Shown here one piece after another: positions 1,275 to 5,440 of a DNA stretch of 64,000 bases; the first letter of the stretch is position 1, and each line of letters begins with the position of its first letter. Below the pieces are notes generated by a model. It did not search any database. It had not been told where the DNA came from and saw only the letters and a list, made by a program, of their open reading frames with translations. The position numbers were made by a program, and so were the translations under genes. This DNA is from Bacillota bacterium. Its GTDB lineage: Bacteria > Bacillota > Limnochordia > DTU080. The stretch covers positions 19,663 to 83,662 of the forward strand of contig DULU01000089.1 of the NCBI GenBank assembly GCA_012840225.1, given 5' to 3'.

Positions 1275-1880
1275 ATGGAACGTCTGGCGGGTGCAGTGGG
1301 GGCATTCCTGGCCGAACAGCTAAATTTGGACAATGATCGCCGCGAACAGCTTTCTTATGGAGCGTTCATCGCATTGCAGAGTGTCCTGGTGTTCGTTATT
1401 CTGCTGGCTATCGCCCTCCTCTTCGACATCTGGCGCCAGGCGTTGGTTATCGCCTTCACGGCCGCCTCATTACGGTGGAAAGCAGGTGGCTCACATTTAG
1501 GGAGCGCCACCGTTTGCACCGTTCTTTCCATTGCTGTTTTCACCGGCAGCAGCCTCCTGGTAAAAAGCGGGACCGCTTATCTGGCCGCCGCTTCGCCCTG
1601 GACACTGTTGCTCCTGGTTTTGGCCTCAACTTTGGTCGCTTCCGTGTGCGTCTTTATGTATGCCCCGGTGGAAGCCGCCACCCGCCCCTTGCGCCCTGAA
1701 CACAAGGAGAGGTTAAAAGCAGCGAGTCGAAAGCTGGTGTTGGCATACTCGTTATGTGCCCTTGTAGCTGTACCATTTTACAGATGGCTCGGATTGAGTA
1801 TCGCAATGGGTTTATTGCTGCAAAGCTTCACTTTGACACCGGCCGGGATCAAAATAGCGCACATCCTGGATAAAAAATAA
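1275..1880 (+). CDS. agrB: AgrB-like accessory gene regulator (peptide-processing membrane endopeptidase)
   Basis: 201 aa multi-TM protein with AgrB-like features (RWKAGGSHLGSATVCTVLS...) directly upstream of a cyclic-lactone-type peptide gene. Confidence 0.85.
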   Translation: MERLAGAVGAFLAEQLNLDNDRREQLSYGAFIALQSVLVFVILLAIALLFDIWRQALVIAFTAASLRWKAGGSHLGSATVCTVLSIAVFTGSSLLVKSGTAYLAAASPWTLLLLVLASTLVASVCVFMYAPVEAATRPLRPEHKERLKAASRKLVLAYSLCALVAVPFYRWLGLSIAMGLLLQSFTLTPAGIKIAHILDKK

Positions 1881-1910
1881 TACCTACATAAGTAGATAGG
1901 AGGTGAAAAC

Positions 1911-2030
1911 ATGAAGAAGATGCTGCTGGGGGTCATTACCACCCTGTTGACCACCCTTGCGGTTACCAGCGTTGCTGGTGCCTGCATGTGGTTTTGGTAT
2001 CAACCGCCGGTTCCCAAATCTCTGGAGTAG
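1911..2030 (+). CDS. agrD: AgrD-like cyclic lactone autoinducer peptide precursor, 39 aa
   Basis: MKKMLLGVITTLLTTLAVTSVAGACMWFWYQPPVPKSLE*, with RBS aggaggtg just upstream. Amphipathic leader, Cys-containing core and YQPPVPKSL recognition tail are typical of AgrD. Too short for the ORF track. Confidence 0.88.
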   Translation: MKKMLLGVITTLLTTLAVTSVAGACMWFWYQPPVPKSLE

Positions 2031-2084
2031 TATCAACCTAATCCCAGATCCCGGCCGGCTTCCCTAAACAGGTGGTAATGCGGT

Positions 2085-2549
2085 TTGTCCACAACAATTG
2101 TACTCTTAGCACTATTGCTGTATATACCTACTTCGATTTTATGCCTTTATGTAGGCTTGCGTGTTATCGGATATGTGCCGAAAGCAAAGCCATTATTGAT
2201 TTTCGGTGCGCTGCACGGAATATTATTAACAATATTCCACAATACGCCACGCCTCTTCGGTTTGCACATTCCTTTAAATACGTTAACCATGATATTAATA
2301 ATATATTACCTAGCCAGATGCAGATTGGGAATGGCGGTATTAGCCGGACTGGTGGCGGTTCTTCTAACCGCTATCGGCGAGGGTCTATTCACAGCCCCTC
2401 TATTTTTATTAATGGGGGTCTCATTGGAAGAATCAATTAAAACTTTTGGATATAGAATGCTTGGCGGCTGGTTTGGAAATATATTATTATTGCTTATAAG
2501 CTTGGTTTTATACTTCCAAGGCAGGCATAAAGGAGCTTCAAAAGCATGA
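2085..2549 (+). CDS. Multi-TM membrane protein resembling a free-standing AgrC/GHKL-kinase N-terminal sensor domain
   Basis: 154 aa, about 5 hydrophobic helices, TTG start; 4-bp ATGA overlap with the next gene. Confidence 0.6.
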   Translation: MSTTIVLLALLLYIPTSILCLYVGLRVIGYVPKAKPLLIFGALHGILLTIFHNTPRLFGLHIPLNTLTMILIIYYLARCRLGMAVLAGLVAVLLTAIGEGLFTAPLFLLMGVSLEESIKTFGYRMLGGWFGNILLLLISLVLYFQGRHKGASKA

Positions 2550-4036
2550 ACTCCACCAAAGACCGCTTAGTCTGGCTGGCTTGCGGCGTATTGCTCATCG
2601 CCTGGGTGATTGCCGCAGCGGCGAACCTCGGACTGCGGCATATATGGATAAACATCGATGAAGCAGAGGAGTTGTTTCATTGGAACTACACTCCTCTGCT
2701 TTTAGGTGCTGCCTTGGTCTTGGCCGGCGGCGTGCTGGCTTGGCTTTTCTATTCTCTCGGCACTCAGGAGCTCAGAGAGAAAGCCGCCATGGAAAAGCGC
2801 TTCCGCCAGATCCTGGAGGAAGCCTGTCGGGGTACCATGCACACTTTAAGCAGCGCCTTGGATTTGCGCGACGACGGTACTTATGGCCACAGCCAGCGGG
2901 TGACCGGTTATAGCGTGGCCATCGGCAAGCGCATGGGCCTGGATCACAATGAGCTGCAAATCCTGGCATGGGGTTCTCTCCTCCATGACTTGGGCAAGAT
3001 CGGCATTCGCGACGAGATTCTGCTCAAGGCCGGACCGTTGGACGAAAATGAAAGAATGCAGATCAACAAGCACGCCATCATCGGTTGGCAGTTAGTGAAA
3101 GGTATTCCCTTTCTGGCAAAAACCGCCGATTTAATCAGACACCATCACGAGCGCTGGGACGGCACAGGTTATCCCGACCGCTTAAAGGGCAACGAAATCC
3201 CTCTTTTGGCTCGCATATTTACCGTGGCCGATGCTTTTGACGCTATGACTTCGCTCCGGCCTTATCGTTCCGTCCCATTTGATATCGACGAGGCCCGCGC
3301 CGTGATCAAGGCGGAGTCAGGGAAGCAGTTTTGCCCTCAGGTGGTGGAAGCTTTCCTCTCCATTTCCGATCTGGAACTGGAAGAAGTGCGCAACCACAGC
3401 ATCATGCCCCTCTCCGACCCCAGGGTTCTATACCTTTTGGACATTGCATCGGAAGATATAAGCGATGCTTATTATCAGGATATCCTCACCGGTACCCGCA
3501 ACAGATCAGCTTGGGAAATGAAGCGGGCGCAGATGATTTTGAAACGCGGTCAGGATTTGGGTATTCTGGTGTTTATAGATCTGGACGGCTTTAAAGATGT
3601 GAACGACATCCACGGGCATCCGGCCGGCGACCGGGTTTTGGCGGATTTAGGAGCGCGCCTGCTCCAGATCGGCTGTGAAAGCTATCGCCTGGGTGGCGAC
3701 GAATTCATCCTCTGGTTCCCCAAGGAGACCACGCTGGCCGATGTGAGCAAACGGATGGAAAGCATTGCCGCCAATTTCGTCACCGACTGGAAACACTTAA
3801 AATGCGGGCTCACGGTCAGCTGGGGAGTGGCGATGGCCACCGAAGCCACCGAGTCTTTGGATCAACTTTTATATGAAGCAGACCGTGCTATGTATGGCCG
3901 GAAACGATCGAACCGCGCCGGCTATTATACCCCCATCTACCCGGTAGGCAGCAATTATCCCATCATGGAGAACGACCAGGTCAAACTGGCTAAAAAAAAG
4001 ATCAAGCCACAAACCGTGCACCGCAACGGCACATAA
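2546..4036 (+). CDS. Membrane-anchored HD-GYP / GGDEF cyclic-di-GMP signalling protein
   Basis: Two N-terminal TM helices; HDLGKIGI and HHERWDGTGYPDRLKGNEIPLLARI (HD-GYP motifs); DILTGTRNR...FIDLDGFKDVND...YRLGGDEFILW (GGDEF domain with intact GGDEF). Confidence 0.93.
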   Translation: MNSTKDRLVWLACGVLLIAWVIAAAANLGLRHIWINIDEAEELFHWNYTPLLLGAALVLAGGVLAWLFYSLGTQELREKAAMEKRFRQILEEACRGTMHTLSSALDLRDDGTYGHSQRVTGYSVAIGKRMGLDHNELQILAWGSLLHDLGKIGIRDEILLKAGPLDENERMQINKHAIIGWQLVKGIPFLAKTADLIRHHHERWDGTGYPDRLKGNEIPLLARIFTVADAFDAMTSLRPYRSVPFDIDEARAVIKAESGKQFCPQVVEAFLSISDLELEEVRNHSIMPLSDPRVLYLLDIASEDISDAYYQDILTGTRNRSAWEMKRAQMILKRGQDLGILVFIDLDGFKDVNDIHGHPAGDRVLADLGARLLQIGCESYRLGGDEFILWFPKETTLADVSKRMESIAANFVTDWKHLKCGLTVSWGVAMATEATESLDQLLYEADRAMYGRKRSNRAGYYTPIYPVGSNYPIMENDQVKLAKKKIKPQTVHRNGT

Positions 4037-4060: not shown

Positions 4061-4116
4061 AAACGGGCGGAGCGCTTTACGGCTATATAGCCAAGGAGAA
4101 CTCCGCCCGCTTTTAC
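4061..4116. terminator. Bidirectional intrinsic terminator
   Basis: Stem CGGGCGGAG(4064-4072)/CTCCGCCCG(4101-4109) between convergent genes, followed by cttttac on + and gttttc on -. Confidence 0.75.
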
Positions 4117-4171: not shown

Positions 4172-5440
4172 CTAATTATCCGTACCTATTTCATACGCCG
4201 CATCCAAAACCAGGTCGATTTGATGCTTGGCCTCCAGCAGGCCGTCCATCACCGATTTCTCACCCGTCATCACCGGGGTGAGGGCGGTGCGTTTGGCGGT
4301 CTGCCAAGTCGCCCAGTCCGGGCTCCAGTCGGCATCGGTCATGAAGGCCACCGACTCCATCAGCACCTGCTGAATTTGGCTGGGCCTTCTCATCTGACTA
4401 GCGAGGGCGCGCACGGAAGGCAGGCTGTAGGGAACGGCATATGAGGTCCAGAAGGCCTCCAGGGTCTCCAGGGTGATGAGCTCGCGCATAATGGTCATGA
4501 TGGCCGCCATATCCTGATTGGGCCGGCGCACTACTTCCCACATGTTGGAGCCGCCGTAGGCATTCCAGGTCACCGGACCTCTCGGCATGGGCGCCACATC
4601 CCAATGCAATTCCGGTTTGGCCCGCACATTGTTTATATAATGGCTGCCGTGGATCTGGAAACCGGCTTTGCTGTCGAGGAAATAAGAACCGCCAAACGCC
4701 GCCGCCCGGTCCTGCAGCACCAGATCGGCCAAGAAGCGGGTAGCGGCGGCAGCTTCGGGAGAATCCAGCCCGGATGATTTGCGGTCGGGCATGAGGACGT
4801 TACCGCCATAGGCTTTGACCAGCGGATCGAAGACCAGATGGGTGAGGTCTACCACCATGCCCCAGATATCGATGACACCGTCGCCGTTCTGGTCCTGAGT
4901 GATCTTCCGCGCCGCCGTGCGCAGAGTATCCAGATTCCAGGCGGCGGTGGGCGAGTTCACCCCGGCGTTGGCCAGAATAGTCGGGTTATACCAGAGCATC
5001 GAACCTACCGTGTCGTAGGGCAGGCCGTAAATGCCGGCTCCGTCCGGCTGGGGCCATCTGACCTCGTTCCAGGGCCCCGGCCAGAAGAGGTTTTCGCTCA
5101 AATAATCGTCTTTGGCCAGATAAGGAGCCAGGTCTACGGCACCGTTCCTGATCACATGGCCGAACAAGTATGTACCTGCCGTGTCGATGATGTCGGGAGC
5201 CATTTCGGTGCCCATGAGGATCAACATTTTATTCCAGAAATCCGGGAAAATAATCACTTCCAACTCGATGTCGGGATGCTTGGCCTGCCACTTCGGTACC
5301 AGGACGTCGCGCATGATTTCATACCTTGGGTTGGAATAGGTGGCAATGGTCACTTTTGGTCTTGCCGCCAGGGCGGCTGCGCCGGAAACCAGAACCAATA
5401 CCATTACCATTACCAGGATGCCTATTACCGGTCTTCTCAT
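4172..5440 (-). CDS. Extracellular solute-binding protein, family 1 (sugar ABC transporter type)
   Basis: Signal sequence followed by a PKVTIATYSNPRYEIMRDVLVPKWQAKHPDIELEV...APDIIDT type periplasmic-binding fold. Confidence 0.85.
   Translation of the reverse strand: MRRPVIGILVMVMVLVLVSGAAALAARPKVTIATYSNPRYEIMRDVLVPKWQAKHPDIELEVIIFPDFWNKMLILMGTEMAPDIIDTAGTYLFGHVIRNGAVDLAPYLAKDDYLSENLFWPGPWNEVRWPQPDGAGIYGLPYDTVGSMLWYNPTILANAGVNSPTAAWNLDTLRTAARKITQDQNGDGVIDIWGMVVDLTHLVFDPLVKAYGGNVLMPDRKSSGLDSPEAAAATRFLADLVLQDRAAAFGGSYFLDSKAGFQIHGSHYINNVRAKPELHWDVAPMPRGPVTWNAYGGSNMWEVVRRPNQDMAAIMTIMRELITLETLEAFWTSYAVPYSLPSVRALASQMRRPSQIQQVLMESVAFMTDADWSPDWATWQTAKRTALTPVMTGEKSVMDGLLEAKHQIDLVLDAAYEIGTDN

Follow-up and report, generated by a model that had tools for sequence, protein, structure and literature searches.

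A putative split-receptor Agr operon with a cyclic-di-GMP enzyme in place of the receptor kinase

Among described systems, the agr system of Staphylococcus and the Clostridia (AgrB-AgrD-AgrC-AgrA) shares with the operon reported here the AgrB and AgrD families, a cyclic peptide and AgrC-type sensor helices, but here the sensor is split off as a protein with five transmembrane helices (5-TM), an HD-GYP-GGDEF enzyme replaces the kinase, and no AgrA/LytTR regulator was found in the genome. RpfC/RpfG couples a DSF sensor kinase to an HD-GYP response regulator by phosphorelay; there a quorum signal controls an HD-GYP phosphodiesterase, as it would here, but a Pfam scan found no receiver domain in the present enzyme, so it is not of the RpfG two-component type. 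In the NspS-MbaA system of Vibrio cholerae, a separate receptor protein controls a membrane cyclic-di-GMP (c-di-GMP) enzyme, as is proposed here, although the receptor is a periplasmic polyamine binder and the enzyme is of the GGDEF-EAL type. A quorum signal acts directly on a c-di-GMP enzyme in the case of the BDSF receptor RpfR, whose phosphodiesterase activity it raises with no phosphorelay (PMC8846402). The mechanism proposed below resembles that of RpfR in this direct action, whereas RpfR recognizes a fatty-acid signal, its PAS receptor is soluble and belongs to the same polypeptide as the enzyme, and that enzyme is of the EAL and not the HD-GYP type. In C. difficile agr is also joined to c-di-GMP, but transcriptionally, as distant c-di-GMP genes encoding EAL proteins are affected in an agrA mutant (PMC3754575). 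In a 2022 census of c-di-GMP inputs, only BDSF and AI-2 appear as quorum molecules with a direct receptor (RpfR for the former, a dCACHE cyclase for the latter), and no peptide does (PMC8846402). In the open-access literature, judged mostly from titles and abstracts, we found no account of a split AgrC or of a linkage between agr and HD-GYP genes, an absence that is no proof of novelty.

The operon and its products

The operon is located in a 64,000-nucleotide stretch of a Bacillota genome (GenBank assembly GCA_012840225.1, contig DULU01000089.1, positions 19,663 to 83,662), hereafter called the window. It is compact (window positions 1275-4036) and consists of agrB, a 39-aa agrD, a free-standing 5-TM gene and the gene of a 2-TM HD-GYP-GGDEF enzyme (Table 1). 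A first-pass annotation of this DNA placed all four genes correctly, and the 4-bp overlap (ATGA) that it read between the stop codon of the 5-TM gene and the start codon of the enzyme gene is real. Its assignments of agrB and agrD agree with the family matches listed in Table 1, while its membrane-bound HD-GYP and GGDEF enzyme with intact motifs is borne out by the HD_5 and GGDEF matches, by the motifs themselves and by two N-terminal TM segments. The operon agrB is the only AgrB gene in the genome. In the sequence, agrD is preceded by a AGGAGGTG site, and the 5-TM gene begins with a TTG codon at 2085 behind an AGGTGG site. As a terminator-like hairpin with a T run sits between the enzyme gene and the convergent next gene, closing the operon, all four genes seem to be transcribed together; a promoter scan gave matches at chance level only. 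Genes for sugar-type solute-binding proteins flank the operon on both sides on the opposite strand (window 4172-5440 (-) and L007:164-1444 (-)), and no link between them and the operon was seen.

Table 1. Features of the operon, in window coordinates.
Feature	Position	Strand	Description	Evidence
agrB	1275..1880	+	201 aa, membrane peptidase processing AgrD	PF04647, E=1.9e-30
agrD	1911..2030	+	39-aa prepeptide, MKKMLLGVITTLLTTLAVTSVAGACMWFWYQPPVPKSLE	TIGR04223, E=3.8e-13, 49.2 bits (cut-off 19)
Predicted thiolactone ring of the autoinducing peptide, C25-M-W-F-W29	1983..1997	+		Cys-to-tail spacing
5-TM sensor protein gene, free-standing	2085..2549	+	154 aa, corresponds to helices 1-5 of AgrC-type receptors	profile HMM from the N-termini of fused AgrC-type proteins, E=1.6e-12
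2TM-HD-GYP-GGDEF c-di-GMP enzyme (predicted)	2546..4036	+	496 aa	HD_5, 6.9e-35; GGDEF, 1.6e-24
Two-TM hairpin of the enzyme	2567..2752	+	residues 8-26 and 51-69, where AgrC has helices 6-7	hydropathy; match in topology only
HD-GYP domain (predicted phosphodiesterase)	2846..3340	+	residues 101-265	aligned to solved HD-GYP 4mcw
GGDEF domain	3473..3916	+	residues 310-457	PF00990, 1.6e-24
Terminator-like hairpin	4064..4114	+	9-bp CGGGCGGAG/CTCCGCCCG stem and T run	fold -31.8 kcal/mol, z=-5.8

Cys25 of AgrD is positioned five residues ahead of a Y-Q-P tail. If the ring is placed according to the spacing between the cysteine and the (D/Y)(E/Q)P tail of S. aureus AgrD, then the ring of the autoinducing peptide would be C-M-W-F-W. 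The AgrDs of relatives share its C-x4-(Y/H)QP-x-x-P pattern, with the motifs CAWFW-YQP, CMFFY-YQP, CWLGY-HQP, CLSWA-YQP, CVIFS-YQP and CAVFS-YQP.

In the enzyme, the HDLGK, HHHERWDGTGYP and RLGGDEF motifs are all intact. The HD-GYP domain contains the HD and GYP motifs and the metal ligands, which suggests that it may act as a c-di-GMP phosphodiesterase; its closest solved relatives include a 3'3'-cGAMP phosphodiesterase besides c-di-GMP enzymes, and relative to 4mcw the Glu of the DPETQNH sequence is Gly, a single-position difference. The GGDEF domain retains the GG(D/E)EF active-site signature of diguanylate cyclases, and the sequence contains no RxxD product-inhibition site at the usual position. 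A PilZ effector protein is also encoded in the genome.

The 5-TM protein and the search for a conventional receptor

Neither the window 5-TM protein nor the scanned free-standing members of its family match any Pfam or NCBIfam model, and comparison of the window protein with solved structures returned no PDB match by sequence or by fold. Its relationship to AgrC was revealed by a profile built from 10 N-termini of fused 5TM-2TM-kinase proteins, with no free-standing 5-TM protein included. With this profile the window protein ranks first among the 504 ORFs of the window (E-value in Table 1; next ORF, 0.88), the best value from 200 shuffles being 0.013, and the alignment covers profile positions 11-144 of 242, ending before the last two helices. 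All 127 free-standing 5-TM proteins match the same profile at E<1e-3, and in a genome-wide search the AgrC sensor homology of the window protein reached 6.7e-16. The family also has fused members. Each of the 20 large-frame matches that were fetched combines 5TM, 2TM and kinase parts in a single polypeptide (434-478 aa), and 13 of the 20 adjoin agrB; a further fused protein is present in the same class (L025). When a fused protein was compared with the Staphylococcus AgrC model, it gave a match of 7e-20. A 5TM-2TM-HD-GYP fusion was also sought among these large frames; the 20 fetched were kinases in every case. In AlphaFold calculations the window protein is modeled with high scores (pLDDT 94.6, pTM 0.87), and the model of a fused receptor exhibits the same series of helices, followed by a low-confidence linker at about residues 161-170 (pLDDT 47) and two more helices, the second of which is continuous with the kinase dimerisation helix. 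The profile match shows that the window protein is homologous to AgrC sensors and confirms its first-pass reading as an AgrC sensor half; judged from sequence and model, it corresponds to helices 1-5 of an AgrC-type receptor and ends where the linker begins. As such it would presumably bind the cyclic peptide. Sequence homology between the two-TM hairpins of the enzymes and those of the kinases could not be established, as hhalign gave 85% versus 33-57% for reversed controls, a result that is not separable from hydrophobic composition; we therefore claim only a common topology, in which a hairpin is followed by a helix into the output domain.

Across the phylum, members of the 5-TM family occur in 129 of 398 sampled genomes (about a third); they are mostly free-standing and adjoin agrB in most of the loci fetched. 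Some agr loci contain two or three tandem 5-TM genes (L042, L045, L060, L066, L067, L083, L111, L124), so that a single peptide or partner might serve more than one receptor half.

No AgrC-type kinase or LytTR regulator adjoins the operon, as had been noticed at first pass, and genome-wide searches for AgrC, GHKL and LytTR did not find the canonical agrC/agrA pair that had been named beforehand as evidence against a split receptor. In the window genome, a profile built from whole fused receptors gave no match to the sensor part other than the 5-TM gene of the operon, and its remaining matches were confined to the ATPase part of ordinary histidine kinases; the GHKL ATPase model (PF14501) gave no match above the cut-off, and the LytTR model (PF04397), which would mark an AgrA, gave none. 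The locus thus holds the sensor half of AgrC only, and no AgrC-type receptor kinase was found elsewhere in this genome. Seven genomes have the gene layout of the window (see below), and in four of them (G295, G364, G385 and G341) the AgrC sensor region was again matched only at the 5-TM gene linked to the c-di-GMP enzyme, the remaining matches covering the kinase part only, whereas G171 and G329 possess an additional, separate 5TM-kinase pair. An AgrC-type kinase was accordingly not found in 5 of the 7 genomes (the window genome included), nor a LytTR regulator of the AgrA type in any of the 7, absences that are not absolute because the assemblies are drafts.

Exchange of the partner gene among relatives

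A search of 73 genomes of the same class with a three-member 5-TM profile located the 5-TM gene in 9 of them. At the loci with readable context, agrB, agrD and the 5-TM gene are followed by the gene of a histidine kinase that has two TM helices and an RHDxxN box, and the two kinases that were scanned (G004, G023) match the SPOB_a, HATPase_c and GHKL domains. These split AgrC systems (5TM plus 2TM-kinase beside agrBD, found here in the same class and phylum) are similar to the window operon in gene order, in their 5-TM family and in the two-TM topology of the partner, but their output is a kinase. As the slot of the window enzyme is occupied by a 2-TM AgrC/Spo0B-type kinase in these relatives, the window operon looks like a split AgrC whose output has been swapped.

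The layout of the window, agrB-agrD-5TM-(2TM-c-di-GMP enzyme) or layout A, was found in 7 genomes from 5 families, and the 5-TM gene overlaps the enzyme gene in all 7, by 4-23 bp. The enzymes differ in their domains. G171 and G329, which belong to one family, contain agrB, 5TM and a 2TM-HD-GYP gene without GGDEF, whereas in G295, G364, G385 and G341 the 5-TM gene is joined to 2TM-PAS-GGDEF-HD-GYP (the G341 contig ends before agrB). Both agrB and the enzyme gene of G329 read as broken frames; its 2TM-HD-GYP gene (L150:3598-4517) is two overlapping frames, from a frameshift or an assembly error, and the G171 gene is intact. The agrD genes of G364 and G385 were picked by pattern, and in G171, G329 and G295 the presumed place of agrD is a gap of 180-200 bp between agrB and 5TM. 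At 44-45% identity, the enzymes of the window and G171 are no nearer to each other than the window enzyme is to HD-GYP proteins without agr linkage, so recruitment of the window enzyme may be recent or independent. In a second and commoner arrangement, layout B (5TM-agrB-agrD-(5-6TM-GGDEF-HD-GYP); about 20 genomes, 12 families), the end of the 5-TM gene runs into agrB, and since the enzyme follows agrD and has 5-6 TM helices of its own, the role of the 5-TM protein may differ there. Together the layouts span about 17 families of the phylum, always with the same strand and order; as loci were chosen by their 5-TM match score, these genome tallies are counts and not frequencies. A query of public genomes with the 5-TM protein gave no match, and one with the enzyme gave generic HD-GYP proteins only; when the best matches among these were taken as a control, neither agrB nor a 5-TM gene lay within 4 kb at any of 80 loci. 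The agrB-agrD-5TM-HD-GYP order, a search for which had been suggested at first pass, recurs in several other families, but the expected conservation of the linkage does not extend to the nearest relatives, which keep the 5-TM protein and pair it with a histidine kinase. In three genomes with kinase-paired 5-TM genes (L023:6138-7109 (-), L076:504-1934 and L151:2950-3516), agrB is immediately preceded by an HD-GYP gene of the same orientation, perhaps as a third link between agr and c-di-GMP, or by chance.

In a tree of 127 five-TM proteins the type of partner is clustered (22 changes versus 47.5 in shuffles), and parsimony places 7 changes between kinase and c-di-GMP partners, a number that is only indicative because deep branches are weak and the window protein forms a long branch. 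The activity common to the enzymes appears to be that of the HD-GYP domain. No complete enzyme of either layout has lost its HD or GYP motif, while L093 (2TM-HD-GYP alone) has no GGDEF, and several layout-B enzymes with an intact HD-GYP domain have a degenerate GSDEF (L116, L127, L081, L082, L130) or no recognised GGDEF, which points to phosphodiesterase activity as the common output.

Proposed direct control of c-di-GMP and its alternatives

We propose that AgrB turns AgrD into a cyclic peptide with the predicted ring CMWFW, and that this peptide is then secreted. The 5-TM protein, equivalent to AgrC helices 1-5, would form a complex in the membrane with the two-TM hairpin of the enzyme, which would stand in for helices 6-7. 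Binding of the peptide would alter the activity of the enzyme, chiefly that of its HD-GYP c-di-GMP phosphodiesterase, and population density would in this way set the level of c-di-GMP directly, with no phosphorelay. As to the sign of the effect, our guess by analogy with RpfR is that the peptide activates the phosphodiesterase. We infer the 5TM-enzyme complex, peptide binding, the enzyme activities and the sign of the effect, and we assign a probability of about two in three to the operon being a split-receptor Agr system whose peptide directly controls a c-di-GMP enzyme. The findings support the first-pass suggestion that the autoinducer controls c-di-GMP through a split receptor/enzyme pair, in which physical coupling and peptide control are the conjectural steps.

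Other readings assign different functions to the same genes. The 5-TM protein could be the autoinducing-peptide receptor of an orphan histidine kinase encoded elsewhere, with the HD-GYP-GGDEF gene merely co-transcribed and responding to its own signal through the 2-TM hairpin. The genome does encode ordinary histidine kinases, seen as ATPase-only matches, and most 5-TM relatives pair with kinases, but we consider this unlikely, as the kinase adjoins the 5-TM gene in the split systems, the window genome and four others of its layout show no AgrC-type kinase, and the overlap of the 5-TM and enzyme genes is maintained in 7 of 7 genomes despite differing enzyme types. An equally doubtful alternative is that the system serves mainly to make c-di-GMP, with the peptide switching GGDEF and the HD-GYP domain being regulatory; the window enzyme and its 2TM-PAS-GGDEF-HD-GYP relatives do have an intact GGDEF signature, yet GGDEF is the domain that is absent in L093 and degenerate in several layout-B enzymes, whereas HD and GYP are always kept.

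Less probable than either of these is a role for the 5-TM protein in helping AgrB with peptide maturation or export, in which case the c-di-GMP enzyme would be the regulatory target of another, unspecified receptor. The overlap of the 5-TM gene with the start of agrB in layout B would fit such a role, as would the loci with two or three 5-TM genes. However, fused AgrC-type kinases have the 5-TM region as their sensor half, and where a kinase is adjacent, the 5-TM gene overlaps or abuts the kinase gene rather than agrB. Even though the slot holds a kinase and not an HD-GYP enzyme in the nearest relatives, a chance neighbourhood of agr and enzyme genes is highly improbable given its recurrence in 7 and about 20 genomes with constant strand and order, and its absence from the 80 control HD-GYP loci. 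In the best reading, the peptide would target a c-di-GMP phosphodiesterase, with the 5-TM protein as its receptor.

Somewhat more tentatively, but still with better than even odds, we regard the operon as a member of an undescribed class of Agr systems in which a split AgrC-type receptor lets the peptide directly control c-di-GMP turnover and in which the output module, a kinase, 2TM-HD-GYP-GGDEF or 2TM-PAS-GGDEF-HD-GYP, has been exchanged several times in evolution. Very few direct receptors of quorum signals on c-di-GMP enzymes are known. How AgrC-type sensor helices signal to different outputs is a question for which the split-receptor design is a natural experiment and also provides a modular tool and, if the proposal is true, a peptide-controlled c-di-GMP enzyme in many families would join the main quorum signal of Gram-positive bacteria to the main second messenger of bacterial lifestyle without transcription.
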